This document shows positions 9,301 through 58,756 of a stretch of 64,000 nt of DNA, piece after piece. The notes under the pieces were generated by a model. It made no database searches and was not told the origin of the DNA. It worked only from the letters and a program-made list of their open reading frames with translations. The stretch's first letter is position 1; every line of letters starts with the position of its first letter. The stretch is from Bolinopsis microptera (lineage: Eukaryota > Ctenophora > Tentaculata > Lobata > Bolinopsidae), in NCBI RefSeq assembly GCF_026151205.1, contig NC_087077.1, positions 17,654,475 through 17,718,474 on the forward strand. The letters are read 5' to 3'. Both the position numbers and the translations under genes were made by a program.

Positions 9301-10370
9301 TATGATGAGAGTCAATGAATCGTTTTCTGAATCGTCAAGCGTTGCCGTGATTTCTGTACCATTGGAGACTGTCCCGTCGGTAACATAAGCAGTTCTGTTT
9401 CCAATGTTGCTTGAGGAAGATAAAACGAAACTGTCTTTTGGGTAGAAGCACCTGAAAATTAATAGAACCCATAACGATGGCAAATGATAAATAGGATGAG
9501 ATAAATAATCAGGAATCAGGATAAGACCATATTAAAAGTCTAGGAATGTTGCTACAAAACTAACTTGGGAATTGAAGCGGAGACAGGTTCCCCCTCCAGA
9601 TCCACATTACTGTACAAACATCCCCCCTTGACACAGGAGGATGATGTCTTTCAGAGGACAGAATATCCGGTCTGAGACGGGAACTGTTATACTCGAGCTG
9701 GTGGCTTCCTGGGAAATTGAGATCTAATTCTGCGGGTTAATTTAGATTTTCTGGAAACGTGCGAACAGTTATCTATTATACTTATAGAGATAGGATCTAA
9801 TGATAGGCGAGTTTCGTCTTTCAGCAAAGCGCTTAACTAAAAGATATAAGTGTTTCGTTTTATTTTTCTCAATCAAGCAGGTGAAAAGAAGTTTAAACCT
9901 GGACGGGCTCAGAAGTAGAGGTTTCTTTAGCCTCCTTTTTAGCTGAAGCGACCGCTATCATGACAATAGCAGCAGTGAGGATAATGAGGAGGAGCAAGAG
10001 TAAAACCGCTGCCACCACGATCTTAGCCTTCACTCCACATATCGTCCGTCTAAGGGGCCAATTAATTACTCAAATTGAATCATATTTATATTGTAAAATG
10101 TTCACAACTATTGGCAATTTTGTCGGAGAAGATGATTCGGTTAACATGTCGATTGCTGTTAGTTGATTAAAAAGATTCCTACCCATGCTTATCCACTATT
10201 ACAAGCTACCACAAGATAATAAGTATTGAGAAACTTACAAACATTTCAAAACACCTCGTGCTTTTAAGGTTTACTCACGTTGGTTTGACGTTAGTCTCGC
10301 GTGGCTCCCCATTAACAGTAATATGGTTGAGAGGAGTGAAAGCTGGCTGAGGGGAACTAACTGCCCTCAT
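373..10370 (-). CDS. Type II membrane GH31 (alpha-glucosidase-like) protein, probably catalytically altered
   Basis: Sixteen exons, read high to low: 10370-10279, 10049-9899, 9708-9565, 9451-9004, 8795-8629, 8558-8329, 8165-8023, 7868-7657, 7472-7364, 6932-6783, 6596-6431, 6107-5977, 5713-5485, 5217-5024, 1364-1195, 589-373. Phases agree at every junction except one extra base in the third exon. The ends at 8558, 5977 and 5713 are the least certain. The product is about 983 residues: a short cytoplasmic tail, a membrane anchor at about 42-66, a trefoil domain (RIFCPLKD, CVKGGC, CFYP), the GH31 N-terminal domain (AYGLGEF, GAHPF), the barrel (GPTVADVIRQYWDVIG, PPYWGLG) and the C-terminal beta domains (LPSGTWCNW, FLKGG, LFDDGDT). 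Family members hydrolyse terminal alpha-glucosides at the cell surface or in lysosomes. Here the nucleophile motif WIDMNE reads CSDLAP, GHWxGDN reads GHFHDSN, and GADICGF reads GPNICTK, so activity is doubtful. The start is the first in-frame ATG after an upstream in-frame stop; a more 5' coding exon is possible. Confidence 0.85.
2786..2958. repeat. 16-bp minisatellite, about 11 copies
   Basis: Unit GTACGTGACTCCACTA, repeated head to tail with a few single-base variants (gtgatt, gtgcgt, gtgaat). It lies in the 3.7 kb intron of the GH31-like gene that also holds the plus-strand membrane-protein exons. Confidence 0.9.
3124..3190. repeat. Short direct duplication
   Basis: TGCAAATACCAGTTTATTAT and the following GACAGAT occur twice, 38 bp apart. 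This is a small local tandem duplication in the same intron. Confidence 0.8.
3887..4720 (+). CDS. 3' exons of a single-pass membrane protein with a PPxY cytoplasmic tail (partial)
   Basis: Two exons are visible: about 3887-4025, then 4395-4720 ending in TGA. They are joined in phase through GT at 4026 and CAG before 4395. The first exon encodes a short acidic juxtamembrane piece (EEETPDK), a membrane span (about 23 residues, IIFVVGMIVLGIVVYQFVL) and basic stop-transfer residues (KKCK). The second encodes a tail of roughly 115 residues, acidic (LSEDEDG), with DPPTY, a PPxY WW-domain ligand of the kind bound by Nedd4-family ubiquitin ligases, overlapping TYQEV (YxxV). The topology suggests a type I receptor or adhesion molecule. 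I do not recognise the family, and no 5' exons could be identified. They may lie at 1.4-3.8 kb or left of the window. The locus is nested in, or interleaved with, the opposite-strand GH31-like gene. Confidence 0.7.
4955..4960 (+). promoter_or_regulatory. Probable poly(A) signal of the plus-strand membrane-protein gene
   Basis: AATAAA, 235 bases past the TGA at 4718-4720 and just before the next GH31-like exon on the other strand. Confidence 0.45.
9565..9708 (-). other. Trefoil exon of the GH31-like gene with one extra base
   Basis: The acceptor (TTTCCCAG at 9709) and donor (GTTAGT) look sound. The upstream exon ends in phase 0 and the downstream exon needs phase 2. The exon is 144 nt where 143 would keep frame. 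Its first part reads EATSSSITVPVSDRIFCPLKD-like sequence and its last part reads TSSSCVKGGC in the +1 frame, and both match a trefoil domain. The slip lies near 9655-9665. It is either a sequencing or assembly error, or a real frameshift. An AAG acceptor at the slip point is a weaker alternative. Confidence 0.7.
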
Positions 10371-24468: not shown

Positions 24469-25436
24469 TTAAGGTTTATGTAAAACCGTATTGTTCGGCT
24501 GCAAAACAATTAAAGAACCAAAGTCACGTGATAATTTTTGGGCGAGCGAATTAGTAAGAGTCCTAAAACTTTCGTCAGACCACTCTGTCCAGTTTCCTAC
24601 CAATTATAAACGCTGTTCACATATTATTACATTCCCCCCTACAACTGCAACTTAGCTAAAATTAGGTATGGTCAACTGTTATGATTCACTTTACACTTTA
24701 CCAGACAGAGTGGTCAGAAATGAAGTAATAAATAATTAGACCACGTAGAAATAAGCAACTACATAGTAGCGTTGAAAATGTAGGCTAATAGCCGATTAAT
24801 ATAGTATTAGTAAAATTTGTAATTTTTAAGGTACTTAACTACGCTTTTAAACTTGTCTAACCCATATAATAACAAAGTTACTTGATTACTTACAAAACCC
24901 CCGTAGAACTGCCGGGAGGGTATTGAAATCTAAAACTCCAATTTAAACAAATTTAATCACATCTCCGGTTGAACAAAAAGGTCGAATTGTGTGGTAAGAA
25001 TTTAGCGAAATATTTTAAGTTTTGAACATATCCAAATATCGGATATCGATATTATCTTAAAGGCTTCTTCGACGAAATCGGAGGCTGGGAGCATAGGGGA
25101 TATTGCAGCTAAAAAAGCCGAATTCAACAGAAATGGTTCGACTGTAAGTCAGTAAATACTACTAAAGGTCACGGTTCTCGTCAGTTACTGTACATTATCC
25201 ATAATATTCGATACAGCACTCAGTTTTAGTGCGTAACTTCTGCGTCTCCATTGTAAAACTTCTCGCTGTATCCACTGAAAAAGTTATTCATTGATATCAT
25301 TATTCCTTTCTGTAAATAAAAAGTGTATTCTAGAACCGCAATGAATAGAAGTAACAACTCATTTATTGTTATTATTCGGCACATGGCATAGTGCAGACAC
25401 AGTGGAAAATATCTGGATTTTATTCTTGCATAAAAG

Positions 25437-25594
25437 CGATAATGCAATTATCGCGTGTTTATCGCCCAATATGCGATTATCGCGTGTTTATCGCCTAACA
25501 TGCGATTATTGCGCACGATTATCGCCTAACATTGGCGATTATCGCTAAATGCACGATAATCGCCATTAAATAGTGATAATCGCTAAAATCTGCG
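25437..25594. repeat. Left subterminal palindromic array (deleted copy)
   Basis: About a dozen copies or half-copies of CGATTATCGC / GCGATAATCG in both orientations, spaced irregularly at about 10-20 bp. They are candidate binding sites for a transposon-encoded protein. Confidence 0.8.
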
Positions 25595-26558
25595 ATGATA
25601 ATGCAATTGTGAAATGATGAGTTAATTTTGACATACTGTGAGTCATATACTGCATCAACATTCAACACTGCACTGAATCAAAATTATGGTTGAACAGCAA
25701 TAAAAAATATTATATTTGATATATATATTAAACCTTGTGCCTGACGCCGCGCGCAGCGGATCCTGCATTTTCATTTTGAGTTTGACCCTGGCCTCACAAT
25801 TACATTTTACAATCAAACTATAACCTTCAAAGGCGAAAGTAAACACAAGCATCAACATTTCATATTTCCAATTTCATTCCTCTTCCCCCTGTTTAACGGA
25901 CGCAAACGCTATTTACGAATGACCCCTGGGCCCCTACGACAAACCCGAAACCATAAACATAAACTTCTATTCAATTTGTAATTCGAAAATTATCTCATAA
26001 TTCCGTTATGGAAATAAATCTTATACATGAATAAGAATCTGAATCAATACATATTGGTCATTCTGTCTGCCGATGGCAATTATATCAATATTATATTCAA
26101 ATAGTACACGGAGTTCATTACTGCATTTCAAGTTTGACACGCGCGGTGAGCCGCGCACTTTTGTTGGATTTGAACTATACGAAAATCAAATTATGAATCG
26201 AGCGCTACTAGGGCGCTCACTTAGCGCTTAGTTACCAGCCAACTTTACTTGTTATGATTTGTACCTCTTAGTGTGACCTGGATCAGAATATTTTCTTCGA
26301 CTTCAGTTTTCAAAAGTGAGAGTGCTTGGATCGAATATAGATATATCTCTGTAAGAGTGTATAAGATGTTACAACTTACACACGTGCGGTAATCGGTATC
26401 ATGTCACCAAGTGACTTGTCTATTGTCGTTACCAATGGCCACACTATTCACCTAATACCGTAATCTGCTTGACAGCTCGATCGAATTAAATGATTGCATT
26501 TGTTGTTATAAAGAACGAAATTAAGCACGTTCATATCGATTATCACATTAGTGAGAAC

Positions 26559-26962
26559 ATGAGTGGAAGCAGGACAGAAATGTTCGCAGGGTTAACTGTA
26601 ACACGACAGTTAAGACCACTTGGTTCCGATGGCTTCCGCAGGAGATGTTGGTTGTAAGTTATTATACATCGAACTTGTTTGTTTCCTCTTACCTACATTT
26701 TTGCTGACTCGACCTGCAATCTGCACGAGTTGTAAGTGAAATTATATAAATCTTCTAATTGTAGGTATATTAAAGTATATTAAAATGTAGGATTTTTTCC
26801 GATTTTGACCCGGGGATATACTTTAATATACTTTAATATGGTTGGCCCCCCCCCCCCCCCCCCCCCAAATTTTACTCTTCAGGCACATGAGAGCCAGGTT
26901 CCCTACTCTCGAAGCGGTTCCCGAAATAAAACGAGCTGTGGCACGTTTCTGCCATATCGAGG
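26559..26962 (+). pseudogene. First two exons of the transposon accessory gene, remainder deleted
   Basis: Exons 26559-26653 and 26883-26962 match the first two exons of the intact gene at 30215-31952, with the same ATG and splice sites. The gene is then cut at about 26996, where the deletion joins transposase 3' sequence. Confidence 0.8.
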
Positions 26963-26996
26963 GTAAATAAGTTTTTATCACTTGCCATTGCCTCAC

Positions 26997-27580
26997 TACC
27001 GAAAGTTTGGTCAGTCCACATCGGTGAAGGTATTGTTGTTATCTCTTATAGCTTTACCTGTTGTCTCCAACCCCTAAATAGCCTGGAAGAAAGTTATTTT
27101 CATGACATATTTATAAGAAACTCCGGCCCAACCGAACTCTTAAAATTGCAACATCATTTCAACACCACCTCCACCAGATACATCTCCTTGAAGACCACTT
27201 TTTGGAGCAGATACAGCTCTGGGGGATGTTTTCTGGATCTTTCAATGAGCAAGGTGGTGAGAGTACTCACTCCCTTTTTAAGAATCACGAACACATGACA
27301 AGTAAGAAATAACTTGGGCTTTTAGAATTAATTGAGTTTGAGATCAAATTTTGATTTCCACACGTTGAATAGTAGTGTGTAAGGGGTCGTTCATATATTA
27401 CTTAACCATCGAAGGTGAGGGGGAGTACATAATATGTGGACGACCACCACTTTAATACAGAAATGTAAGCAACATAAATTTTCAGACCATGTTCGTAATG
27501 ACGAAGACCGAGTTGTGAAAAAGTGCGAGCTAGCAACACGGAAATACCTGTTGAAAGTGAAATCCAAGCTGTGTGACTGA
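26997..27580 (+). pseudogene. 3' remnant of the transposase gene
   Basis: It holds the end of transposase exon 11 (26997-27029) and copies of the last two exons (27178-27301 and 27486-27580), including the His-x4-His and Glu motifs. It lacks the first ten exons and is not a functional gene. Confidence 0.85.
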
Positions 27581-28822
27581 AATGGGTCAATCATGATGGA
27601 TTTAGTGTTTGGGACAATCTGCTATATGCCTAAAATTGAAAGATTGTTAATTTGGTGATGCTTCACCCTCTGTTCATATTTTCTACTTGATCAATAATGA
27701 TATTCGCCACATATTATGTAAAACGCCGCTTATGTTTTGCCATTAAAATTTTTTCGTTATAGTAGTGACTGCGACTGAAACCGCGCATCACGCAAGTTTT
27801 TGTCGCCGCGCGAGGGTGATTCAATTTTGTCCACTTCGCCATAATTCTCAGAGGATGTAATTTGACGTGTGCGGGACAATTTTGAGCGCAAGGAATCACT
27901 TGAATCGAAGATAACGATTGAGCTGACAATTTCTCCGGTAAAAATTAGACCTTAGATAACTGAATTGGGATGACATCGGAAATAACTCTGATGCGAGCAG
28001 GAATACACTATGTCATACTCATAGCAGTAATACTTAGACGTGAATATTAATATCCGATGGATCAAATTAGTGTATATGTTATCATTATTATATATATAAA
28101 GTGTGCCTCACTGGGGCACCCTTAAGTAACAGTTCCAGCTCGATAGGCCTCGTAACCGGGATGGATAGAGACAAACGAAATACATCATCTCGTCACAAGC
28201 AATCAGATCTAAGTTAAACGATAAGGCCAGGACATACTATGAGCATTGAATTAACTGTCAAAATGGTAACCTGAGCCCTAGAGGTGATCACATGCTATAA
28301 GCCTAACGGAAAAGTATTCTAAAAATATAAATCTAATCGTTAAGTTAAACACATTTGAAAGCGGCTGTCAGATAATATAAACGGTTCGGGATGATGGCTG
28401 TCGAGGTTCGGGCATGACGCGCCCGGCCGCACAATAAGCGGTGACTAGGGAAGTCACAACAAAAAGTCCCCTCTCAGTCTAATCTGAGCTCTCGATATTT
28501 TGGAAGAATTCTGGATTCTAGCTAGAAATAGGTAAATTAGTCAACGAACATGAGATGAATCATATATTAACTTAAAGATGAAAACCCGCTAATCAACGTT
28601 GACCAAAATTAAATTATGTGGGCTTACAATTGAATCATATAGAGTAACTATTTGATCATTTGACGTAGCCATTTTGTCAACGCAGCATTTTGTCAATTTG
28701 TCAACTCTAAATATTCGACTGCTGTTAATCTTTTAACTTTAATTATAAACTTATGTTACCACTGAAAATCTGAAATGGCTCCAGTAGATCTGTAGATGTG
28801 GCAGCTAGGTTCTCGTTATATA

Positions 28823-29008
28823 CTGCGATAATCGCAAATTGAGGCGACAATCGCACGATAATCGCATAATGAGGCGATTATCGCACAAGGGGGGGCGATA
28901 ATCGCAAAATGAGGCGATAACCGCGCGATAATCGCAAAATGAGGCGATAATCGCACAAGGAGTCGATTATCGCGCGATAATCGCGAGGGAGTGCGATTAT
29001 CGCTGCAA
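28823..29008. repeat. Right subterminal palindromic array (deleted copy)
   Basis: About a dozen GCGATAATCGC / GCGATTATCGC units, often followed by AAAATGAG or ACAAGG. It is near-identical to the array at 37522-37706 of the intact copy. Confidence 0.8.
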
Positions 29009-29053
29009 AAATAAAATCTGCGAAATGGCCAACATTTTCCACTGTGCAGATAC

Positions 29054-29100
29054 CACAGTGGAAAATATCTGGATTTTATTCTTGCATAAAAGCGATAATG
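29054..29100 (+). repeat. Left transposon end with 12-bp heptamer-box spacing
   Basis: CACAGTG, then 12 bases (GAAAATATCTGG), then the box ATTTTATTCTTGCA, then AAAA and GCGATAATG. CACAGTG equals the V(D)J RSS heptamer. The deleted copy has the same end at 25398. Confidence 0.85.
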
Positions 29101-29252
29101 CAATTATCGCGTGTTTATCGCCCAATATGCGATTATCGCGTGTTTATCGCCTAACATGCGATTATTGCGCACGATTATCGCCTAACATTGGCGATTATCG
29201 CTAAATGCACGATAATCGCCATTAAATAGTGATAATCGCTAAAATCTGCGAT
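29093..29252. repeat. Left subterminal palindromic array (intact copy)
   Basis: CGATTATCGC / GCGATAATCG units in both orientations, the same as the array at 25437-25594 apart from single-base changes. Confidence 0.8.
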
Positions 29253-30214
29253 GATAATGCAATAGTGAAATGATGAGTTAATTTTGACATACTGTGAGTC
29301 ATATACTGCATCAACATTCAACACTGCACTGAATCAAAATTATGGTTGAACAGCAATAAAAAATATTATATTTGATATATATATTAAACCTTGTGCCTGA
29401 CGCCGCGCGCAGCGGATCCTGCATTTTCATTTTGAGTTTGACCCTGGCCTCACAATTACATTTTACAATCAAACTATAACCTTCAAAGGCGAAAGTAAAC
29501 ACAAGCATCAACATTTCATATTTCCAATTTCATTCCTCTTCCCCCTGTTTAACGGACGCAAACGCTATTTACGAATGACCCCTGGGCCCCTACGACAAAC
29601 CCGAAACCATAAACATAAACTTCTATTCAATTTGTAATTCGAAAATTATCTCATAATTCCGTTATGGAAATAAATCTTATACATGAATAAGAATCTGAAT
29701 CAATACATATTGTTCATTCTGTCTGCCGATGGCAATTATATCAATATTATATTCAAATAGTACACGGAGTTCATTACTGCATTTCAAGTTTGACACGCGC
29801 GGTGAGCCGCGCACTTTTGTTGGATTTGAACTATACGAAAATCAAATTATGAATCGAGCGCTACTAGGGCGCTCACTTAGCGCTTAGTTACCAGCCAACT
29901 TTACTTGTTATGATTTGTACCTCTTAGTGTGACCTGGATCAGAATATTTTCTTCGACTTCAGTTTTCAAAAGTGAGAGTGCTTGGATCGAATATAGATAT
30001 ATCTCTGTAAGAGTGTATAAGATGTTACAACTTACACACGTGCGGTAATCGGTATCATGTCACCAAGTGACTTGTCTATTGTCGTTACCAATGGCCACAC
30101 TATTCACCTAATACCGTAATCTGCTTGACAGCTCGATCGAATTAAATGATTGCATTTGTTGTTATAAAGAACGAAATTAAGCACGTTCATATCGATTATC
30201 ACATTAGTGAGAAC

Positions 30215-31952
30215 ATGAGTGGAAGCAGGACAGAAATGTTCGCAGGGTTAACTGTAACACGACAGTTAAGACCACTTGGTTCCGATGGCTTCCGCAGGAG
30301 ATGTTGGTTGTAAGTTATTATACATCGAACTTGTTTGTTTCCTCTTACCTACATTTTTGCTGACTCGACCTGCAATCTGCACGAGTTGTAAGTGAAATTA
30401 TATAAATCTTCTAATTGTAGGTATATTAAAGTATATTAAAATGTAGGATTTTTTCCGATTTTGACCCGGGGATATACTTTAATATACTTTAATATGGTTG
30501 GCCCCCCCCCCCCCCCCAAATTTTACTCTTCAGGCACATGAGAGCCAGGTTCCCTACTCTCGAAGCGGTTCCCGAAATAAAACGAGCTGTGGCACGTTTC
30601 TGCCATATCGAGGGTAAATAAGTTTTTATCACTTGCCATTGCCTCACTTCTTATTAGGAACTAGAGAAGTTCTCGCAAAACATCATGGCTTAACAAATGA
30701 CAACTCTGATCGATATATCTTTTGTAAAAATCGTTCTTTAATCATTAAGGAGATGAATACATTTCAGAAAGTGGCGTACACTCTGATTGGGTGAGGGAGG
30801 TCCAGCTACGATATAAGAAATATGCTGTTGACAAGAAATGCAAGAGGAAGGGGGCAGCAGTGAAGCAGAGAGCAGCATCGGATCATCCCCCAGTTACTGC
30901 TGCTGGTACCCAGACAGATCCACTGCACGCATTGCACTGCAAGGTAAGCTGCACCTGTATCACATATGAACAATCAAATTTCATCTGTCATGATATGAGA
31001 TCCACTGAATCCCTGTTGAAACAAAGCTGTTAAAATAGTGATATTCAGGATTGTGTGACCAATGCCATGCGGCATGTCCTGGACGAAAAGGCGGCGGAAA
31101 TTGCGGAGATGAGGACCAATCTCCTCCTCCACCAAGCACCCTCTCCGACCCCAGCACCCGTCAGGTAGCATAGCAGAATAAATATGACCCGGTGTCCAAT
31201 GTTTTTGAAATGGTTGAAAATCGTCATTTAGTATGCAGTTTAATTCCATTGTAATGTTATTGCCAGGGTTATGTAATATGTTTGTACCCAGGCTAACAAT
31301 ATTTAGTCAAATTTAAAACTGATATATAACACATCTAAATATTGCAGCAGTATCCTGATCAGAACCCCTGACCCCATCCGCTCTCGCTCGCGAACTCCCT
31401 CCGTCAGTTCAAATGGGCCAGGGTAAATTTTTAAGCCATAAAAGTAAATGAGTTAATGTATGTGGTGTTTTGGTAAGTCAACTAGTTATTTTATTGATAA
31501 GAAAGGACTCTTATGAAGATTGGCGATGCGTTATATCATTTGTGATGAAATCTTAACACCATATTTATTTCAGACCGTCCCGTTCCAGTCACGGTACACC
31601 AGTCTGTGCTGTGCAACCACGATCACGGATTAATTCAGCAGCATCCAGGTATTAGGCAGTGAACCCCCCTCCTGGCTCTCCCTCCCTGGCCCTCCCTCCC
31701 TGGCTCTCCCTCCCTGGCTCTCCCTCCCTGGCCCTCCCTCCCTGGCTCTCCCTCCCTGGCCCTCCCTCCCTGGCCCTCCCTCCCTGTCCCTGCCTCACTC
31801 ATTCTAATTTCAGTATCAGTGCGGACAACTGGGGGCCCGAATCTGTCATAGAAGCCAGAGTCCGCATGGCTGCTGAGAGGAAAAAAAAGGCCTCTCAAAA
31901 GAAGCTCACTGCGACTGAGATTTTCCGACAGCGTTGGGGAGGTTCAGTTTAA
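30215..31952 (+). CDS. Transposon accessory gene: basic Ser/Arg-rich protein of unknown function
   Basis: Seven exons, all with consistent phase and GT-AG borders: 30215-30309, 30534-30613, 30750-30943, 31049-31164, 31348-31422, 31574-31648, 31814-31952. The product is 257 residues. ATG is the start because it opens the frame after GAAC and the two following junctions keep phase. The N-terminal third has many aromatic and Arg residues (GFRRRCWLHMRARFPTLEAV). A basic stretch follows (RYKKYAVDKKCKRKG), then AAGTQTDPLHALHCK with a Cys/His pair, a short amphipathic helix (HVLDEKAAEIAEMRTNLLLH), a Pro/Ser/Arg-rich linker (IRSRSRTPSVSSNGPG) and a basic C-terminal helix (ARVRMAAERKKKASQKK). I recognise no domain, and it is not a kelch protein of the RAG2 type. 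Being the only other gene in the element, it may bind the subterminal repeats or partner the transposase; this is inference. Confidence 0.75.
31670..31797. repeat. 14-bp C-rich minisatellite in an accessory-gene intron
   Basis: About nine copies of CTCCCTCCCTGGCT / CTCCCTCCCTGGCC, inside the intron between exons 6 and 7 of the accessory gene. The minus strand is a run of GGG blocks that could form G-quadruplexes. Confidence 0.9.
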
Positions 31953-32529
31953 CTATAAAACTTGTAAATACACTGAATTTATTATTAATTTTTGAAAAAT
32001 TATGTGATGTTTGTTCCGTGATACTAACTTTTTTTTGTGACACTAATTCATTAACTCTATTTGTGATACTAATTTATTAACTAATTTTATGATACCAATT
32101 TTGTGACACTAATTTTGATAGACTGTGGGATACTGAAGGGAAAAGAAGCAGTTCTAACGAGCTCTTCTCAAACACAAGGATATATCTTGTGAACTTGGCT
32201 GGTATATATGAAACATTTGACACGGAGTTGTAGAGTGAGCTATGTGCCTCGCCAGGGCTAAAGTAGTGAATGACCTTGCTGTACGGCAAGTTAAACAAGG
32301 ATCTGAAACTACTAGGTTCCGTACAGGCTCAACTCTACACCCGTGCCAATATGTTCATATGAAAGCCTCTTGATTTATACTAATAATTCTTTAATTCTTT
32401 TTGCTCGCTTTCTTTTCACCCTTCCCCCTCTCTCGATATTTCATCAATTATCACATCCCAACATTTGAAATGTTTTCAAGTAAAGTTTAGCCTCAAGAAC
32501 TTAACCTTCACGGACATTATAGTAACAAA

Positions 32530-35500
32530 ATGCTTTGCCCGTGTGTTCTCTGTCAACAAGAGAATGAATTGTCCGACCGTACGGTAAAGGAACATCTGCT
32601 CTCATTCGGTCACATGAAGAAAACACTGTTGGCTGATTTTATCAAACATACCGATCCGGGAGACAAACTTTTTCACCACGTGCTGAGGTAATTTACTAAT
32701 AAGACACAGGCTGTCTGCATCTTTGACTATAAAACATCATCAGTCGTAACTTGAGTAGGATCAGAGTGGGTTGAGTGTAGCACTTTAAAAGGATATTTAA
32801 GAGCTGAACTTGTGAATATTAAACATCTGAAGGTGATCATCCGTGTAATCCTGCAGGTCGTTACTAGATAAGTGCTTTGAAGAGGGAGCAACCTTTGAGG
32901 TGAAGGGTTCACAGGGAAAACCCCTCCTCATCACCACTATCATTAAGCCGCACAAGGAAATAAAAACTCCTGCTGACAGTGTTAAAAGGAAGCACACTCA
33001 TGTCTTCAAGGATATAGTAGAGAGCCAGGTATCCTGAATAACGTTATCGGTAATAAGTTAAACTGTATATCACTTCCGCAGTTTGCCATCATAGCCATAC
33101 TGAAACTGAACGAATCCCTACAGGCAATTTAGTTCAATCAACATGAATATTTGCAGGCTGAGTCAAGCTGTTCAAAATCTAATGACTCTGATATCGAATC
33201 AGTGACCAAACGGATCCGAACTGCGGAGTTAACATCACTCTCTAAAGAGCAGCGGGAGTATGTACAGGCGTTGGCTGGCGTTGACTGTAAGAAACGAATT
33301 GATGCTCTTCATGTTGCTATGTTCAAAGCTGAATGTAAGTTGTTAAGAACGATACAAATTGTCATTATCATTACAACTTAGCGGGTGGAAAAGTTAATTC
33401 TTAGTGTGCAATAGATTTCATCGCAATAAATTAAATGCTGACTCAATTTTTAGCTAACACGGGGACAGCCAATGTACGAAACAACCTGCGGCCACTGCTA
33501 AAAAAATATGATATAAAAATGGAATCAGAGAAGGAAATCAAGTCAATGGAAGAATTATACACCGTGAGTGCTCAGTTGAACTCAAAACCAATTATATATC
33601 ATTTTGGTGTCATGGCGTACTAGCATATAGCATAGCACAACCCAGATTTTGAAATATAGAATATATTGTACATCAAAAATTAACATCATTCATGTTTTAA
33701 GGTGAACTATATGAGTGCAATGGTTTCTCTTTCCCATAAAGCTGCAGCACATGATAAAAATGAAACTAAAAGTGGTGAGCTGTTAGCAAGACGTACCCCA
33801 GTAGCCTACTGTGATGGACAGGAACTGCTAACCAAAACACTTATAACCTTGAAGAATACCGGTATTTCAAATTTCTAGAGATTATAGAGCTGTTTACAAA
33901 AAATTAATTTGATTTAAATAGGTCAAGGTGGGCAGTTCTTTTAGCGGTTTTTATCACATAGTTCATTAACAGCCAGCTGAATTCTATATATTCCAGGCCA
34001 GTTAGATGTGGGAACTGACAAAACTATACATGTTAAGCTGTTTGTAGACGCAGACACGAGCTCCACTAAAGTGGCAGTCAATGTGCTAAACCAGCCTTCG
34101 TGTAACAGCTCGTATGCCCACCCAATGCTGGTGTACACCGAAGCTCCGGACCATCGCAGGAACATGGAGGTCATATTTAAGGTATTTCTTCATGAAATCT
34201 AGACTTCAACTTGAGCTTATTTGTATTAACAGCTTACACTTTAAAAACTGGACAGGCATGAGACAGATAACATTACAGGTGGTTAACCGGGACCTACCAC
34301 AGCTCAAGAACTTTGTCTTCTGTGGAGCACATGTGAAGATGATTCTCTGTGCAGACACAAAGGCACTGTGGGCTATGCTGGGTATGGGCAGCAATGGGAC
34401 GTTCCCCTGTCCACTGTGCGAGGTACATAAAGACCTGATGCAAGTACCCAGAAGCCAGAGAGCTCTCTGCAAGCCCCGAACTTTTGCGGGAATTATGCAG
34501 AACTTTGATGCTAATATGAGGTACTTATAAACTTATAATACCAGTCATTAACTCGCTGATTGCAGCTCCTTCATTTCACAAAGTACAAACATTTATCTCG
34601 ATGTATATTGTATACCATGTATGTATTTCGATAGATGTATACCATTTCTGTAAACTGTTAGTATCGAGTTTTTCCACATCAGAATGACTCAGTGTAACCC
34701 GAGATCCCAAGCCCAGTTTATGAATGTTGCTTCACGACCCATCACAGACTGTTTCGGGGAGGATTCTGATTATCTCATAAACTGGGTCGCTGTTCCGTTC
34801 TTGCACATAGTAAGTGATCGAAGCTCACAGTTTTTTATTCGAACACCGCTCATGCTGTTCCTGATATGTGGCAAATAGAACTAGGTACTAGAATTATTTG
34901 ACTGATTGTCATGACTCTTGATACTTCCTTTAGAACATCAAAGTCGGGACTTTTCTGTGGACAGAGTACGGTAAACTGTGCGAGGAGATAGACTTTGTAC
35001 TCGCTTGCAATGTGGCAGACGGGTTTCTTCCCAACAGCTACAGCAGTACGACAGACTTTGGAGCCATGATTCTGCGCATCGAACAAGGTAATGTAGATTC
35101 ATCGATGAATGTATCACTTCATTATTGAAAAATTGGAGGCTTTGCAAACTGATATATAATGAGTTGAAGAAAATAAGTGTGGCACTGTACATTTTAGGTA
35201 ACCGTGTGGCCTCGAAGTGCAACAGTGGGCCCCTTTCCTCGAAGTATGAGCAATATTTGAGGGGCATCAATGTCACTCCTGAGGCATACCATGGTGTGTC
35301 CCTGACCGGCGTGAGAGCAGGATATTTGGTTAAAGCCAATCACACTCAATTTTGGACAGACCACTTCTATAAAAACGAGTAAGTTCTGTGAGATCAGTGC
35401 GATTTAACTCATGTTACTAATGGTTGTCGTTTATAGTGAAATAACTACCACTTTTTACTTGTGATTGAAGGCTAAAATTCTGTATTGATAACGAGCTTCT

Positions 35501-36279
35501 GTGACTGACCGATTCTGTGTTGACAGGAAGATAAGACCACAGGACAAGCTGCACTTTCAGCAACGGCTCCTTGCACTGGATCGCATTAAGTCCTCGTATA
35601 GAGATCTCTTAGTTCTCGGTGGCAAAAGTGGGAAAGTGAAGAGTCCCCGTGAGATCGAAACTCTTGTCAAGGCCAGGGACCTCTTCTTGGCAGAGTACCG
35701 AAAGTTTGGTCAGTCCACATCGGTGAAGGTATTGTTGTTATCTCTTATAGCTTTACCTGTTGTCTCCAACCCCTAAATAGCCTGGAAGAAAGTTATTTTC
35801 ATGACATATTTATAAGAAACTCCGGCCCAACCGAACTCTTAAAATTGCAACATCATTTCAACACCACCTCCACCAGATACATCTCCTTGAAGACCACTTT
35901 TTGGAGCAGATACAGCTCTGGGGGATGTTTTCTGGATCTTTCAATGAGCAAGGTGGTGAGAGTACTCACTCCCTTTTTAAGAATCACGAACACATGACAA
36001 GTAAGAAATAACTTGGGCTTTTAGAATTAATTGAGTTTGAGATCAAATTTTGATTTCCACACGTTGAATAGTAGTGTGTAAGGGGTCGTTCATATATTAC
36101 TTAACCATCGAAGGTGAGGGGGAGTACATAATATGTGGACGACCACCACTTTAATACAGAAATGTAAGCAACATAAATTTTCAGACCATGTTCGTAATGA
36201 CGAAGACCGAGTTGTGAAAAAGTGCGAGCTAGCAACACGGAAATACCTGTTGAAAGTGAAATCCAAGCTGTGTGACTGA
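32530..36279 (+). CDS. DDE transposase with the RAG1/Transib/CMC signature
   Basis: Thirteen exons with consistent phase: 32530-32687, 32857-33028, 33157-33334, 33454-33563, 33702-33861, 33997-34181, 34279-34520, 34683-34809, 34934-35087, 35198-35378, 35527-35728, 35877-36000, 36185-36279. The product is 695 residues. The N-terminus is a C2H2 finger (Cys5, Cys8, His22, His28). First catalytic Asp: probably D277 in VKLFVDADTS. It is followed by HPMLVYTEAPDH at 301-312, which resembles the P-L-x-L...E-x-x-D-H stretch after D600 of mouse RAG1. Second: D347 in CADTKAL, with C365-P-L-C368 18 residues later (RAG1: D708, C727, C730). Then H625-x4-H630 (RAG1 H937, H942). The catalytic Glu is E647 or, more likely, E651 in NEQGGES (RAG1 E962 in GNES). 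The short C-terminus ends in a basic helix. It should cut DNA at the CACAGTG ends. An earlier in-frame exon or start is possible. Confidence 0.85.
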
Positions 36280-37521
36280 AATGGGTCAATCATGATGGAT
36301 TTAGTGTTTGGGACAATCTGCTATATGCCTAAAATTGAAAGATTGTTAATTTGGTGATGCTTCACCCTCTGTTCATATTTTCTACTTGATCAATAATGAT
36401 ATTCGCCACATATTATGTAAAACGCCGCTTATGTTTTGCCATTAAAATTTTTTCGTTATAGTAGTGACTGCGACTGAAACCGCGCATCACGCAAGTTTTT
36501 GTCGCCGCGCGAGGGTGATTCAATTTTGTCCACTTCGCCATAATTCTCAGAGGATGTAATTTGACGAGTGCGGGACAATTTTGAGCGCAAGGAATCACTT
36601 GAATCGAAGATAACGATTGAGCTGACAATTTCTCCGGTAAAAATTAGACCTTAGATAACTGAATTGGGATGACATCGGAAATAACTCTGATGCGAGCAGG
36701 AATACACTATGTCATACTCATAGCAGTAATACTTAGACGTGAATATTAATATCCGATGGATCAAATTAGTGTATATGTTATCATTATTATATATATAAAG
36801 TGTGCCTCACTGGGGCACCCTTAAGTAACAGTTCCAGCTCGATAGGCCTCGTAACCGGGATGGATAGAGACAAACGAAATACATCATCTCGTCACAAGCA
36901 ATCAGATCTAAGTTAAACGATAAGGCCAGGACATACTATGAGCATTGAATTAACTGTCAAAATGGTAACCTGAGCCCTAGAGGTGATCACATGCTATAAG
37001 CCTAACGGAAAAGTATTCTAAAAATATAAATCTAATCGTTAAGTTAAACACATTTGAAAGCGGCTGTCAGATAATATAAACGGTTCGGGATGATGGCTGT
37101 CGAGGTTCGGGCATGACGCGCCCGGCCGCACAATAAGCGGTGACTAGGGAAGTCACAACAAAAAGTCCCCTCTCAGTCTAATCTGAGCTCTCGATATTTT
37201 GGAAGAATTCTGGATTCTAGCTAGAAATAGGTAAATTAGTCAACGAACATGAGATGAATCATATATTAACTTAAAGATGAAAACCCGCTAATCAACGTTG
37301 ACCAAAATTAAATTATGTGGGCTTACAATTGAATCATATAGAGTAACTATTTGATCATTTGACGTAGCCATTTTGTCAACGCAGCATTTTGTCAATTTGT
37401 CAACTCTAAATATTCGACTGCTGTTAATCTTTTAACTTTAATTATAAACTTATGTTACCACTGAAAATCTGAAATGGCTCCAGTAGATCTGTAGATGTGG
37501 CAGCTAGGTTCTCGTTATATA

Positions 37522-37706
37522 CTGCGATAATCGCAAATTGAGGCGACAATCGCACGATAATCGCATAATGAGGCGATTATCGCACAAGGGGGGGGGCGAT
37601 AATCGCAAAATGAGGCGATAACCGCGCGATAATCGCAAAATGAGGCGATAATCGCACAAGGAGTCGATTATCGCGCGATAATCGCGAGGGAGTGCGATTA
37701 TCGCTG
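37522..37706. repeat. Right subterminal palindromic array (intact copy)
   Basis: About a dozen GCGATAATCGC-type palindromes, partner of the left array. The array is interrupted by a run of eight G. Confidence 0.8.
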
Positions 37707-37747
37707 CAAAAATAAAATCTGCGAAATGGCCAACATTTTCCACTGTG
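37690..37747 (-). repeat. Right transposon end with 22-bp heptamer-box spacing
   Basis: Read inward on the minus strand: CACAGTG, then 22 bases starting GAAAATGTTGG, then the box ATTTTATTTTTGCA, then GCGATAATCGC. The box matches the left end except for one base, but it sits ten bases further from the heptamer. Confidence 0.85.
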
Positions 37748-37984
37748 ATACGTACAGTGATTGGGCCGCGCAATATATACGCGCGCGCATTTTGAATGCA
37801 TACAATCAGGTTACAAGCAATGCGCGTTACTCACTAATCCACCCAAACACAACAGTTCAGAAGGACTTTCTACAAAACTGTACCACATAAAATGATCGAA
37901 AATCTAGTGTTTCAGTAAATAACTTAGAGTATATTTTCGATTTTATCCAGATCCTAATATATGATTTATTTGAAACTTTCCATA

Positions 37985-41960: not shown

Positions 41961-43819
41961 AAAGACCTACCACTAACCAATATTTTTGTAAACCATATTT
42001 TACCGCCCAATTTTACCCCCCTCCGTAATCAACCGTAATCAAGACCCAACCCCCCCCCCCCTCCTAACAGCAATATTTTTCCGGATCCATGACTCAAGTG
42101 CCGAACTGCCGAAGGCACAAAAAACTAAAAAGACAAGGACAAGGGTTAGCGAACGAAGTTTTTTTTCGTATATGGTAGCTTGCGACCATCATTCGAACGA
42201 ACGTTCGTGCCCGCACGCACAGATGTCGCCCACGTTCCTAACTGCGCGGCGCAAACTTTTTTTCGTGATATTCTCAATTAAATTATTGTTGGTAACCAAT
42301 GGTAACTTACCAAGCCACTGCTGTACACTGTACAGTGTACATTGTACAATGTACAGTACAGGAACAAAAAACATGTAAAAATTTAGTAAGTATCGTACAG
42401 GAACCAATTAGTAATGTACATTGTATATCTCGGTAACTGTACAATGTATATCTCGGTACCTGTGGATATATTTAAACGGAAATAAAATAAATCTAGATAA
42501 ATGAGTACATATCCAGTAACATGACCTGCATTTTCTGTAAAATTAGTACACACGAGTGTGCAGAGATCATCATTCCTTACATTCCTAATTGCTCTGTTAC
42601 TACCCAGGTCAATACTCAATATCATTAAAAATATGACGTATATCTGGGTGAAATATGTCGTGGTTTTTATCACCCGATGGGGCATTTTGGGCCCCACAAT
42701 GATCCAAAGGGGCAGAGCCCGATGCAGGGGGGCAAAACCTGCTACAGGCGAGTCATGGGAAAATTTATTGAAAAACTCTTAAATATTTCGATATTATACT
42801 TCAAACACAAGATATAATACTTCAAACACAAGTAAAAATATTCGTCAACTTTTTCGAAAAAAAATCTTTTTAAGTATTAATCATTTGGCTTCGTCAGAGT
42901 TTTGTCGAAACTATACCGAAAAAACCAGTCCCATAACTCTTACTGTTTTCTTGATTTAGTCGTTCGGATATTTCCCACACACAGACATGAACACACTTTT
43001 TGGGATTATCAGTGTAGATAATTTCTTTAGTTACCCTAACAAAGACCCTACGACCAACCAATATGTTTGTGAACCCTTTTGTCCAGCGTGTAACTTGAAA
43101 AGCAGTGGGGACGTGGCAGGCTTGTGATGCCTAACATTATAAAGAAGTGTGTAACAAACCCAAATATCCCAACTATCACGCTCACCTCATTGCATTTAGA
43201 TAACCTAATCATGTTACTAGTGTAACCCGTGCCTACGGCCGGGACTTCACTATCGCAGTTGATGAGTTGAAATGCATAAGTATAACTGTATAAACCCGCT
43301 TATTATATTTAAAAACACACATTACATTTTCGTAGTTAAGACGGTGCGAAAGTACGAACTCGCTCTGTCCAAGCACACTGCAATTTAATTCTGAGTGCCT
43401 CTTATAAATCTTATAGTAATACTTGATAGCCAATCTTGAGGTATTGTATTGTATTGTATCAGATGCCATCGTGGAGTAGGTGGTCTCCTGCACCTTTTCC
43501 GCCTTGACATAATGAAAAAACCTAGACATGCAACCTGCAATCCTAAGGTGATTGCAGCCCTTACGGAAGACTATAAGGTCTTCATGCTTCTGTAATTAAA
43601 TGATACATAACGATAACATGTAAGCCCCAGAAGTTTCCAGTATCGTCATGAATCGATATACTTACTGAGCTTGGTGTCACTTGGCCATGAAAAAAGCTGG
43701 GATTGCATTGACCGTAAAATTGTATAGAAATAAATGCCCTTCGTAACATTTATTCCTCTAAATTGAAAAACGACGTAGAACTGACAAATTACATAATTAT
43801 ATCGCAAATTTGTTAGGGG

Positions 43820-44520
43820 GGGAGAGAGAGCGAGAGTGGGAGAGAGAGCGAGAGTGGGAGAGAGAGTGGGAGAGAGAGCGAGAGTGGGAGAGAGCGAGAG
43901 TGGGAGAGAGAGCGAAGGTGGGAGAGAGCGAGAGTGGGAGAGAGCGAGAGTGGGAGAGAGCGAGAGTGGGAGAGAGCGAGAGTGGGAGAGAGCGAGAGTG
44001 GGAGAGAGCGAGAGTGGGAGAGAGCGAGAGTGGGAGAAAGCGAGAGTGGGAGAGAGCGAGAGTGGGAGAGAGAGCGAGAGTGGGAGAGAGAGCGAGAGTG
44101 GGAGAGAGAGCGAGAGTGGGAGAGAGAGCGAGAGTGGGAGAGAGAGCGAGAGTGGGAGAGAGAGCGAGAGTGGGAGAGAGAGCGAGAGTGGGAGAGAGCG
44201 AGAGTGGGAGAGAGCGAGAGTGGGAGAGAGCGATAGTGGGAGAGAGCGAGAGTGGGAGAGAGCGATAGTGGGAGAGAGCGAGAGTGGGAGAGAGCGAGAG
44301 TGGGAGAGAGAGCGAGAGTGGGAGAGAGCGAGAGTGGGAGAGAGAGCGAGAGTGGGAGAGAGCGAGAGTGGGAGAGAGAGCGAGAGTGGGAGAGAGCGAG
44401 AGTGGGAGAGAGCGAGAGTGGGAGAGAGCGAGAGTGGGAGAGAGCGAGAGTGGGAGAGAGCGAGCGTGGGAGAGAGAGCGAGAGTGGGAGAGAGCGAGAG
44501 TGGGAGAGTAGGAGAGAGGG
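43820..44520. repeat. Polypurine minisatellite, about 700 bp
   Basis: Units of 16-18 bp, AGAGCGAGAGTGGGAG with optional extra AG, about 40 copies. The plus strand is almost all purine, broken only by one C and one T per unit. All six frames are open for long stretches only because of the repetition, so the apparent proteins are not called. Confidence 0.95.
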
Positions 44521-44689
44521 AGAGTTCGCGAGACACGTTCGCGTTAGTATCACATTTGCGTCACAAAATGATCAATTAAACCACTTACCATCGGCCGATT
44601 TAAAAAAAAACCTTAATCATTTGGCTTGGCCAGAGTTTTGTCAGCACTATACCGAAAAAAACCAGCCCCGTAACTCTTACCGTTTTATT

Positions 44690-54460: not shown

Positions 54461-56242
54461 TTTAAAATGAACCGAATTAAAAACTTACCGAGTTGAGGTA
54501 AGTAGTGAAGTAAACATGAGCACCCCTCCGCCTTGTCAAGCAACTTGCAACAACAAGTTCCCTTGCACAAGGCATCAGCTCCAACAACAACTCAGCTCTT
54601 TCCACATCCGTCTCCCTTCTAAACACGACAAGACACTGTAGCTTAGGGATGGTGGTGTCCACTGTGCTAGTCACGTCGTTGAAAGAGGTGCCTGTGTGAG
54701 GGGTGGTCTTGTTAGGCTGGGGGTAATTAGACAATATTCATCTGGATATCTGACCTTAATTATCATGGTTTTAATAACCATTTTAAATTAAATTAACAGA
54801 GTAATTACCCAATACATCAGACCAGGCAAGGTTGATTTGGTCGTTGACAGTTCTCTCACACAGCAACTGATTAACGGTTGAGCTTGTGGTCGTAGTCACT
54901 CCATTTTGTGTTCTCTCGACTGTACATGTTAACAATTCGTTAGTCTGCATGACAGTCTTCATGGGAGGGGATGTTTTCTTTCTTTTTGGATTTGCAGCTC
55001 CTTGATACAGGGGTTCTGGAAAGTACAAAAATTATACCAATTATTTGTAGCGAATGCTTCAAAACTTCAAGCATTGCGATTTTCTAATCTGCTCTGGTTT
55101 ATATTACAAGCTATGATTACAAAAACCAAAGACTAACCACATTTGGAATGTAAAGAAGGTGTAGCCATGTTCTTGCAGCGATTATGGTAGTCTTGACACC
55201 AGTCGTCTAACTGAGACAGTCTTGTAGGTTTCCCATTAATAACAATGTACTGTAACAGTCGACTGCAGAGCACTTTGAAATTATACAAATTCTGTTCTTT
55301 CATGAATTTACCCAAGTTTTTTGAAATGTATGGGTCCTGAATAAACAATCGTCCCAATGATCCGTACTGTTTTCGTCTTTGAACATTTTGATTGGTTCTG
55401 ATATCTGCTGAGTACTTTGAGGAATCTATTTGACATGCAATAAACTTGAGATAGTCCAAAACGATTTGAGCAGCACAGAGTTTAGGTTTACTTAGATTTG
55501 GGTCAGGGCGATGAGTTGTTATGTTTAGAAGAGGTATCCTGGGATTCCGTCTTTGAGTTAGGAAATAGATAAAAAGAATTATATGCCCGTAAGTTGACAA
55601 TCCACCTGTTCGAACACTTCCAAACTTTGTAAAATTCAAGATGTGTTTGAAGAATCGAAATGCTTGAGCAATTTCAGGATAAGTCTTTGAATAGGATTTC
55701 AAGAGGCCTGTGTTCCAAATAACATCAGTTCTATTGATTGAAGGAACTGAAAAGCTTATGTCACAGTCTAACCCAGTTTTGATGTGCTCAACAGTTATTA
55801 TTGGCACAACCGCCCCTCTTACAACATCTTTTAACTTAAATAGACATGACCTCTCCATCATTCTCTTACACTCGATAAGCTGGTTGTCAATTCCATCTTC
55901 TTCCAATTCTACAACAACATCTATATCAGAGCTTTTGCTTCGAAATCCATTGTATGATGACCCAAAACCATGAATACGTTTAAAATTCAAGCAACGGGAA
56001 CATTCAGATTTCAAATCAGTCTGTACAGTCTGGACTTGAGTTAAGTATTTGCTTTCAGGAGTCAATTTAGAATTTATCTCATCGATAAGCTTGCTGAGAT
56101 TGTCATAGGCCAGTTGAAGTGAATTTGTGTTAGTGCAATGGTCCTCGAAAAAGATTCTCCCATCCTCGATGAGTGGATAGTGTGGTTCTATAATCATTAT
56201 TGCTTCATTCTGTAATGTAGTTGTTTGAGTTATGTTCCTCAT
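53896..56242 (-). CDS. Terminal nucleotidyltransferase (non-canonical poly(A)/U polymerase family)
   Basis: Five exons in phase: 56242-55138, 55015-54809, 54691-54489, 54343-54233, 54099-53896, about 609 residues. Exon 1 holds the catalytic half: the helix-turn GFGSSYNGFRSKSSDIDVVV with Asp106 and Asp108, the third Asp (Asp161 in LDCDISF), then a central domain with GGLSTYGHIILFIYFL and a PAP-associated region. This is the polymerase-beta fold of GLD2/TUT-type enzymes, which add A or U to RNA 3' ends. An NPKRKK motif in exon 2 could be a nuclear localisation signal. The last three exons (VFRRETDVERAELLLELMP, LYFLISPPEVPNL and so on) form an extension of about 200 residues that I do not recognise. 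The final exon ends HEIM-stop, but a GTGAGT donor overlaps that stop, so further exons to the left are possible. The exon 2/3 junction has an alternative pair of sites. Confidence 0.82.
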
Positions 56243-58756
56243 TAAACAATAAAAGTAGTAGCATATATTTTAAATAAATACTTGCAAAAATTTAATTAAG
56301 CACCACCCCAGAAATCATCCTAACATCATAATTCAATATAGTTTGGGGGCCGTTTAGAATTTAGATATTTCGTAAACCAGATTTTCACCTTTTCAAATCT
56401 CCCTCCCATATCTGGAAGTCACAGTGAATGATATCGAAATTACAGAAGCTTTACCAAACCCGCTCTCTAGGCTTACTGTATGTGTAATATGTGAACGGTC
56501 CCTTGTAGTGTCATTATGACCGCTAACAAGCGACAGCAGTGACAGCACCCTAGGAGTTAGGAGACAGTCACTGCACTCCAGTGCATGTATATTACTGAAG
56601 GATCACATAAAAAATATCTAGTGATTTAGCTTCCTTTTATAATCCAGCTCTTCACGGCTATGGGGCTACTTGCCTATTAGTATAGACTGACTCTTAGTAA
56701 CTGGGTGGCGCTCAGACTGTCATTCCACCATATCTTCAATAGGTTTCAATGTGTTTATGTTCTATGTGTTTGTGAACACTGAAGTCTGAAATCTCCATGT
56801 AATCTCTTAACTTCCAATCTTGAGCTTGCTTAATAACTTTTATGCTTGTATGTAGAGATATTTTAAAGGCGAAACCAACTGAGATAGATGTTTTTAGGAT
56901 TCTGATTCCCACTAGATACAATGATAATTTAATTTAATAGCCATGTCTTCTGCCACAGCACTAGACCAAAACCTTCGTGATTTTAGACACATCAAGACCC
57001 ATGCACATATGATACAGTTGACTTAGATTTGAGTGCCACGATCAAATTAATAACAGCTTTAACCTGCACTAGGTCTAGGTAAACTGATGAATCCATTGTT
57101 TATTAACATAATTATTCTACAAAGCTTGTGACTTCTGCTAAACCTCAGATCGAACTTCCTTTGACATTTTAGCGACATCATTAAATATGATAAAATTAAT
57201 ACCTTAGTCGGTAATATTATGGGGGGATTATAGGTGTTAAAATATGGACAGTTATAAATATGGTTCTTTGGACCCAAAATCATTCTTGCTCTGTTAATTC
57301 GCAGAGCAACGATCTGGAAGGGTTGACATCGTCAATTAAATTGTAAATCATCCATCCATTAAAGTGATTTACAAAATTACACCTAAACCTTGTGTCTCGG
57401 TGTTTAGTTAAACGGTACTTTAAAATATTGAACATACTCTGCAACCTGGTAGCGCGGCTGATGTAAAAACAAAAATGTTGGCCTGCAGTTTGTGCATAAC
57501 CTACAAAATAACCCTGCGCTCCAATAAAAGCCGTCTGGAAAAGTAAACTCCGCAAAATGTTAATTAAATTGTAATGAACAGGCACAAAGAAGCATTATTA
57601 GCAATTGTGTCCTTTATTTACCTTAATGGACGCTGTCAATTCATCGCAGCTCGGCGCAGCACAGTAGCGCATTTCGCCGATCTAGCTGTGAGAAGCCTCA
57701 TTGAGTGCGCGGCGCAGCACAGTAACGCATCGCACTACAAGTTAATTTTTTGTAAATTAATTTATCACTTGTACAGTACAATTATTTATTATAATAAAAA
57801 CCACTTTTGTGAAATGGTTGTAATTGTACTAGCGTGATGCACTACTAGGTCGCGCCGCGCATCTTCTCGCAACCACGTATGCAAATCGGCGAAATGCAAA
57901 AGATTAAGCTGGATTGACATTGTGAATCTAAAAGTGAAATGGCTATTTTGACTTTAAATATTTGAACTAAATATTACCCACTGCGAGCTGATCATTCGCG
58001 AGGTGAAAATGAGCGCTGGGGACGATCTCTCTGAAATTTTACCTGTTGGTTCAGTGGACGATTTTAGCCACAGCGCCTTAAATTTAGCACGATCGTCCAT
58101 AATCACACAAAGTTACAGCTAATTTAGTGATGTAAACACTCGCCGCAATATACTGGAATTGAATCGAGCGCGTTACTATGGTTACTGCGCGTTGATATGG
58201 TTACTAGATTTAGATTAGATTCATCGTTTTAGCGCGCGTAGCACGTAGCATTATTACAATTCTATCATATTGTCATATTATTATTAGATGCACGAGTTTA
58301 GCTGCATTTTACATTTAATTTCAGGAATCTGCAAGATTTGTAATCGATTAGATAATATTTAATTTCGTTCTTCATTCCTTGCTTGGCGGTCCTCATTTAT
58401 GTATGTATTTTACCTGGGAGCGGGAACTCCAAGCTCAAGGCTACGCTTTTCATTAACCGGGATGTAATTTTCATAAACCGATTAGAGTTTAGTCAGTATG
58501 ACATGCTGATCGCCGCCAGACAGTTGAAAATTTGTTTCATACACATAAAATTGATTGTGTCATATCTGAGTTCTTGGCTGTATTTCGAAACCTCAGTCAG
58601 TTGTGGGTTTTTACCGGCCTAAATAAAAAGTCAAGTTTACAGGACATTTCTGGGGAACCTTACTATGTGTTTTACTTAACAAGATCAAAGATGCGAAGGT
58701 GAGGAAAAGGAAGCGTGCATTCGAGAGCGTATCATTTTGTACATTATATTACCCCG
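56243..58756. other. Region without a recognisable gene
   Basis: Upstream of the nucleotidyltransferase gene and presumably containing its promoter. GGCGCAGCACAGTA occurs twice near 57655 and 57712. No exon with motifs is supported. Confidence 0.45.

Follow-up and report, generated by a model that had tools for sequence, protein, structure and literature searches.

The window analysed here, a 64,000-nucleotide stretch of the genome of the ctenophore Bolinopsis microptera (contig NC_087077.1, positions 17,654,475 to 17,718,474 of the forward strand), carries an 8,694-bp element that is very probably a cut-and-paste DNA transposon, autonomous and recently mobile, of the CMC (EnSpm-Mirage-Chapaev) group, nearest to Chapaev. 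The second of its two genes would encode an Asp-Asp-Glu (DDE) transposase in which an RNase-H-type core is combined with a Cys2/His2 zinc site. The element runs from the tip CACAGTGG to the tip CCACTGTG (5' end, CACAGTGGAAAAT; 3' end, ATTTTCCACTGTG), with ATAC on either flank. An earlier note on this DNA had described a two-gene DNA transposon with both ends and duplications intact and neither gene broken, and the description is borne out by the ends at 29054-37747, the ATAC flanks and the open frames of gene 1 (251 residues) and gene 2 (695 residues).

Relatives of the element were sought throughout the 264.65-Mb genome, in which 13 large scaffolds (15.2-26.2 Mb) carry 97.5% of the bases. The window element defines family 1, and families 2 and 3 were recovered by a transposase search, the tip pattern and end searches. 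Among the 21 two-ended elements of the three families, 19 are flanked by a 4-bp duplication and none by a 5-bp duplication. Single ends (L006, L008, L011, L012 and others) are included in the end counts given below and stand outside this duplication count; L027, L035 and L040, which have no recognisable tip, were left out of the end counts, and L023 and L043 are treated as one place. A fourth family (L016/L021) was left out of the counts, as its alignment is convincing in the N-terminal part only and contains one stop. The place L043 (C7:1444786-1445449) is a 664-bp non-autonomous family-3 element with the duplication AATA.

Chapaev elements are characterised in PMC4079192 by duplications of 3 to 4 bp, by tips reading CAC and GTG and by the motifs C(2)C, LH and H(4)H, and the element displays a 4-bp duplication, CAC..GTG termini and C(2)C/LH/H(4)H between the second catalytic Asp (D2) and the Glu. 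In addition, the transposase matches DUF1280 (PF06918; E = 8.2e-5, 22.8 bits, under the cut-off of 25), which PMC3985635 equates with Chapaev transposases and groups with RAG1 in a single clade of the RNase-H-like proteins. A profile built from the three families also finds, among the reading frames searched, a DUF1280-type copy in the same genome (L020, E = 4.2e-5) that itself exceeds the Pfam cut-off. Duplications, ends, motifs and the DUF1280 match thus all support the choice made in the earlier note of CMC/Chapaev over Transib. Among the observations that weigh against the assignment, no Pfam match of the transposases attains its curated cut-off; Chapaev is reported to have a Chapa zinc-finger domain at its N-terminus (PMC4411706), whereas that of the present protein is more like an EnSpm-associated domain; and two of the 21 two-ended elements, L010 and L009, the latter mutated at its left tip, have no matching duplication at the tip.

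Gene 2 is predicted to consist of 13 exons which, joined by GT-AG splicing, give 695 stop-free codons (Table 1). This model, together with the comparison with family 2, reproduces the 695-residue product proposed earlier, and D277, D347, C365/C368, H625/H630 and E651 are all found in the spliced protein where the earlier note had placed them. A 715-residue alternative, with an upstream acceptor for exon 12, was dropped because the acceptor before position 35877 agrees with the sister family 2. The family-2 transposase is 75% identical in amino acid sequence to the window protein, and all 12 introns share position and phase, although this comparison leans slightly towards agreement, since the family-2 gene model was built by aligning the window protein and its exon-12 acceptor was picked by comparing both. 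Identity between the two genes is 65-86% in the 12 of 13 exons compared and 46-60% in the 12 introns; dN is 0.158, while dS gave no value, which is read as saturation, and the combination suggests that the transposase has been under purifying selection.

The residues C365/C368, L442-H443 and H625/H630 are kept across the three families; family 2 also keeps D244 and D279, and family 3 is without that stretch in the alignment. D277 is likely to be the first catalytic Asp (D1). The rival residue D244, which lies in a CDGQ stretch that hhalign pairs with CDGMGD of RAG1, was set aside, because the GDKG stretch of L020 aligns near D277 and because D277, judged by eye, is the better fit for the initial strand in the RNase-H order.

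The reading frame of gene 1 spans 7 exons without an internal stop, and its product is basic (pI 10.5). The protein has no Pfam match at E <= 1, and hence no kelch domain is seen; the family-2 counterpart gives a single chance-like Pfam match (E = 0.08), and the search of gene 1 against solved structures a single chance-like match (E = 0.61). Homologues of gene 1 accompany the transposase in elements of families 1, 2 and 3, with two of the 90 matches (C2:7026229 and C2:7099320) left unassigned to an element. The En/Spm system has subterminal repeats, two proteins, a helper (TnpA) that binds those repeats, and deletion derivatives; by analogy, the basic product of gene 1 may be a helper, perhaps one that recognises the CGATAATCG subterminal repeats. 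A 14-bp tandem repeat of 9.4 copies (window 31667-31796) lies within the last intron of this gene.

The ends of the element are bipartite. The outer 13-bp repeat opens with CACAGTG, the consensus heptamer of the recombination signal sequence (RSS) (PMC8289069), and the exact heptamer stands at the tips of two of the three families (CACAGTGG in families 1 and 2, CACGGTGG in family 3, with mutated tips in a few old copies). Of the 29 left ends, 27 have an inner 15-bp block (GATTTTATTCTTGCA at the family-1 left end) that begins at base 19, and in all 28 right ends the block begins at base 29. The other two left ends are L009, where the mutated tip shifts the block, and one with a broken block; L042, counted among the 27, carries an insertion inside the block. 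The left and right positions therefore differ by 10 bp, or one helical turn, with spacers from the heptamer of 11 and 21 bp. Summed over the three families, the offsets 19/29 give 38 of 45 block matches, compared with at most 33 in 5,000 column shuffles. In four elements compared, drawn from the three families, the 9-bp cores CGATAATCG and CGATTATCG occur no more than 800 bp from the ends and are absent from the middle. As the ends share descent and were partly found by similarity, the independent evidence amounts to three related families, not 57 ends.

Whether the 19/29 asymmetry only reflects an ancient 10-bp indel at one end, functionless and kept by descent, is in our judgement an evenly balanced question. 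The asymmetry would have arisen once, before the three families split, and so represents a single event; the right ends, moreover, were recovered by similarity to that of the window element, which favours its layout, and in family 2 alone a piece of subterminal repeat at bases 45/42 (13/15) slightly outscores the block at 19/29 (12/15), a result that also speaks against the block match at these offsets. Set against this, every one of the 28 right ends listed for families 1-3 carries the same 10 extra bases, CCATTTCGCA, which are absent at that place from left ends, although the transposases of families 1 and 2 are only 75% identical with dS beyond calculation and the families mostly disagree with one another at left-end bases 14-18. 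All 21 two-ended elements are left-right pairs, which is a weak argument, since ends were paired from separate left and right searches.

In the mechanism that is most likely, as proposed from sequence, the gene 2 protein, with its predicted RNase-H-type core (D277, D347 and E651) and zinc site (C365, C368, H625 and H630), would bind both element ends; synapsis would bring together a left end, its inner block beginning at base 19, and a right end, its block beginning at base 29; and the transposase would cut at the CAC tips and join the element to target DNA with 4-bp staggered cuts. The gene 1 protein would assist, perhaps at the subterminal repeats. A functional reading of the asymmetry is possible, if doubtful: a CMC transposase outside the RAG/Transib line may enforce left-right pairing through a one-turn spacing difference (heptamer + 11 versus heptamer + 21) measured from an exact RSS heptamer. 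If this is true, 12/23-type asymmetric synapsis is older than, or has repeatedly evolved around, RAG1-like transposases, and the element would provide an intact, recently active model of it; invertebrate RAG-like complexes have been proposed to be relatively insensitive to end asymmetry (PMC7204232). A CMC element with conserved asymmetry would offer, in this respect, a direct way to ask if, beyond V(D)J recombination, pairing is imposed by unequal spacing. Among the papers listed on helical-turn asymmetry of transposon ends, or on CMC/EnSpm elements in ctenophores, no title or opening abstract line reports this pattern, which may be in print.

Membership of EnSpm/CACTA instead of Chapaev appears unlikely, although several features point that way, namely the match of the first 30 residues of the transposase to the EnSpm-associated Transpos_assoc domain (PF13963; E = 0.0011, 19.6 bits, under the cut-off of 27.7), the two-protein organisation, the subterminal repeats at both ends with neither 9-bp core in the middle, and the presence of deletion derivatives. 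On the other hand, the element proteins have no match to Transposase_21 (PF02992), the tips read CACAG or CACGG and not CACTA, and the duplications are of 4 bp, compared with the 3 bp stated for EnSpm in PMC12730594. Elsewhere in the genome Transposase_21 gives no match at E <= 1, and the control genomes are silent as well, so that its absence is not shown by this search.

That the element is instead a Transib or RAG-like transposon is highly improbable. The motif layout is shared, the tip is an exact RSS heptamer, and a family-3 fragment matches Pfam RAG1 (PF12940) at E = 0.029 (12.9 bits, under the cut-off of 25) in the stretch holding the last Glu; neither the window protein nor the family-2 protein matches this domain at E <= 1. 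The 5-bp duplication of Transib and RAG is found in none of the 21 two-ended elements, however, and gene 1 shows no sign of a kelch domain. The two copies in this genome that exceed the PF12940 cut-off (E = 1.2e-11 and 7.6e-9) are distant from the element, being scored by the three-family profile at E of about 3.

These two copies, L018 (C2:19700416-19701534) and L019 (C3:4783511-4784548), are Transib/RAG1-core-like with frames of 571 and 406 residues; no Transib-type inverted ends were found in the stretches fetched, and they would be old elements or possibly host genes. The L020 DUF1280 fragment, at about 4200-4405 (C3:20135699-20135878), is accompanied on the opposite strand by a 758-residue open frame, reverse-transcriptase-like to the eye.

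The RAG1-type layout of active site and zinc site that had been claimed for the transposase is real, and the order of motifs is the same in both proteins. The RAG1 residues given earlier (D600, D708, C727, C730, H937, H942 and E962) agree with the sequence in solved structures, and the pairing is D600/D277 (probable), D708/D347, C727/C365, C730/C368, H795/H443, H937/H625, H942/H630 and E962/E651; E308 may be the counterpart of RAG1 E662, although L020 has no Glu at that place. The further claim that the intervals match within one or two residues holds for D2 to Cys (18 versus 19), for the last His to Glu (21 versus 20) and for C-x2-C and H-x4-H, but fails for D1 to D2 (70 versus 108), for Cys to the His of LH (75 versus 65) and for the latter to the first His of H-x4-H (182 versus 142). 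In fact, the combination of DDE and zinc site has already been reported for the whole CMC/Transib group (PMC12730594).

The profile alignment to RAG1/Transib is in register and scores 28.0, above column-shuffled profiles (mean 17.9, SD 2.7, best 25.95, with none of 100 reaching the observed value) and the reversed profile (18.0). The hhalign probability for RAG1 is only 3-5%, though; neither the single protein nor the profile finds RAG1 among solved structures at E <= 10; and the three-family profile scores mouse RAG1 at E = 0.075. In view of this weak signal, RAG1 kinship was dropped as a strong claim. Homology of the transposase to RAG1 is plausible, in register but weak, and the element seems no closer to RAG1 than CMC elements generally: its kinship with the enzyme of antibody-gene rearrangement is distant and is already known for its class.

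Recent activity is suggested by the near-identical copies, intact ends, open genes and deletion derivatives of family 1. Searches with the left end found at least 13 places and with the right end at least 31, at least 12 of the latter matching at 99% or more. The comparison set comprises 14 places, namely the window element, its left neighbour and L001-L012, of which two are full length: the window element and L004, which is 99.8% identical and encodes two proteins identical to those of the window. Eight more are two-ended and have lost one or two internal stretches (25398-29046, L001, L002, L003, L005, L007, L009 and L010), L006 has a diverged left part, and L008, L011 and L012 have one good end each. 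The pieces, which lie on different chromosomes, are 99.4-99.97% identical to the window element, except one piece of L006 (94.3%) and one of L011 (97.9%). Ten deletion junctions are present in the eight derivatives, eight of them with 1-4 shared bases, the short ones of which may be due to chance; as the break points differ, each deletion probably arose independently. Together these observations are consistent with a recent burst of cut-and-paste movement accompanied by faulty gap repair. In the window, the CAGA duplication of the deleted left neighbour and the ATAC duplication of the element share one base (29050). A dead or assembly-made repeat, in place of a mobile element, is scarcely credible, since, although only two of the 14 places are full length, the sites carry differing 4-bp duplications, most pieces are near-identical on different chromosomes, and two copies have identical open genes. 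Beyond this genome, no relative, intron-containing or intronless, was confirmed among 130 viral-contig and 40 genome-contig pattern stretches, from collections neither of which, by design, holds animal genomes.

Table 1. Positions, in window coordinates, of the element, its ends and genes, and the adjoining copy.
Feature	Position	Strand	Basis
Complete autonomous CMC/Chapaev-like DNA transposon (family 1; probable)	29054..37747	+	inverted ends, 4-bp duplication, two open spliced genes
Left target-site duplication ATAC	29050..29053		flank comparison
Right target-site duplication ATAC	37748..37751		flank comparison
Internally deleted second copy, 3,649 bp, 5,048 bp missing, own duplication CAGA	25398..29046	+	adjoins element on left
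Outer 13-bp terminal repeat, left; first 7 bases CACAGTG = RSS heptamer consensus	29054..29066	+	end comparison
Outer 13-bp terminal repeat, right	37735..37747	-	end comparison
Inner 15-bp block, left end (element base 19), 5-bp spacer from outer repeat	29072..29086	+	end comparison
Inner 15-bp block, right end (base 29 from right tip), 15-bp spacer	37705..37719	-	end comparison
10 extra bases of right end, CCATTTCGCA	37720..37729	-	alignment of ends
Left subterminal repeats, cores CGATAATCG/CGATTATCG	29098..29201		repeat and core counts
Right subterminal repeats, cores CGATAATCG/CGATTATCG	37524..37704		repeat and core counts
Gene 1 exon 1	30215..30309	+	splice model
Gene 1 exon 2	30534..30613	+	splice model
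Gene 1 exon 3	30768..30943	+	splice model
Gene 1 exon 4	31049..31164	+	splice model
Gene 1 exon 5	31348..31422	+	splice model
Gene 1 exon 6	31574..31648	+	splice model
Gene 1 exon 7 with stop	31814..31952	+	splice model
Gene 2 exon 1, cysteine/histidine stretch resembling PF13963	32530..32687	+	splice model, Pfam
Gene 2 exon 2	32857..33028	+	splice model, family-2 intron comparison
Gene 2 exon 3	33157..33334	+	splice model, family-2 intron comparison
Gene 2 exon 4	33454..33563	+	splice model, family-2 intron comparison
Gene 2 exon 5	33702..33861	+	splice model, family-2 intron comparison
Gene 2 exon 6, D277 (probable first catalytic Asp) and E308	33997..34181	+	splice model, residue positions
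Gene 2 exon 7, D347 and C365/C368	34279..34520	+	splice model, residue positions
Gene 2 exon 8, LH motif H443	34683..34809	+	splice model, residue positions
Gene 2 exon 9	34934..35087	+	splice model, family-2 intron comparison
Gene 2 exon 10	35198..35378	+	splice model, family-2 intron comparison
Gene 2 exon 11	35527..35728	+	splice model, family-2 intron comparison
Gene 2 exon 12, H625/H630 and predicted catalytic E651	35877..36000	+	splice model, residue positions
Gene 2 exon 13 with stop	36185..36279	+	splice model

Elsewhere in the window, a long simple tandem array at 43646-44579 leaves several frames open (SLPLSLSPTLAL...) and is probably a repeat and not a gene. On the minus strand, a 378-residue open frame (55133-56269) resembles by eye a non-canonical poly(A) polymerase or terminal uridylyltransferase (GSSYNGFRSKSSDIDVVVE), and a further open frame encodes 179 residues (8992-9531).

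Compared with Chapaev, the element has the same CAC..GTG ends, 4-bp duplication, DDE residues with C(2)C, LH and H(4)H, and DUF1280-like core (PMC4079192; PMC3985635), the last with a match under the Pfam cut-off, and differs in its EnSpm-associated-like N-terminus; its second gene and its bipartite ends with a 10-bp offset may set it apart as well. With EnSpm/CACTA elements such as maize En/Spm it shares CAC ends, subterminal repeats, two proteins, deletion derivatives and, with a match under the cut-off, a PF13963-like N-terminus, but it has no Transposase_21 match and no CACTA tip, and its duplication differs in length. The RAG1-like layout is known for the whole group; of possible interest is an intact, apparently recently active element that has this layout and whose bipartite ends are offset by one helical turn.

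With RAG1, Transib and ProtoRAG the likeness lies in the DDE and zinc-site layout, collinear in the profile alignment, whereas the duplication is of 4 bp instead of 5 bp, the offset is 10 bp and no RAG2-like gene is seen. The element tip CACAGTG equals the RSS heptamer, but the inner block is T-rich on the heptamer strand and is not a nonamer. The P-element transposase belongs to another superfamily. Asymmetric bipartite ends are common to the element, to the 12/23 RSS pair and to ProtoRAG, with 27/31 (PMC8289069), and the Drosophila P element, which differs in its 8-bp duplication, likewise has unequal spacing of 9 and 21 bp from terminal repeat to transposase site, an arrangement that has been likened in print to the 12/23 RSS (PMC7776569).

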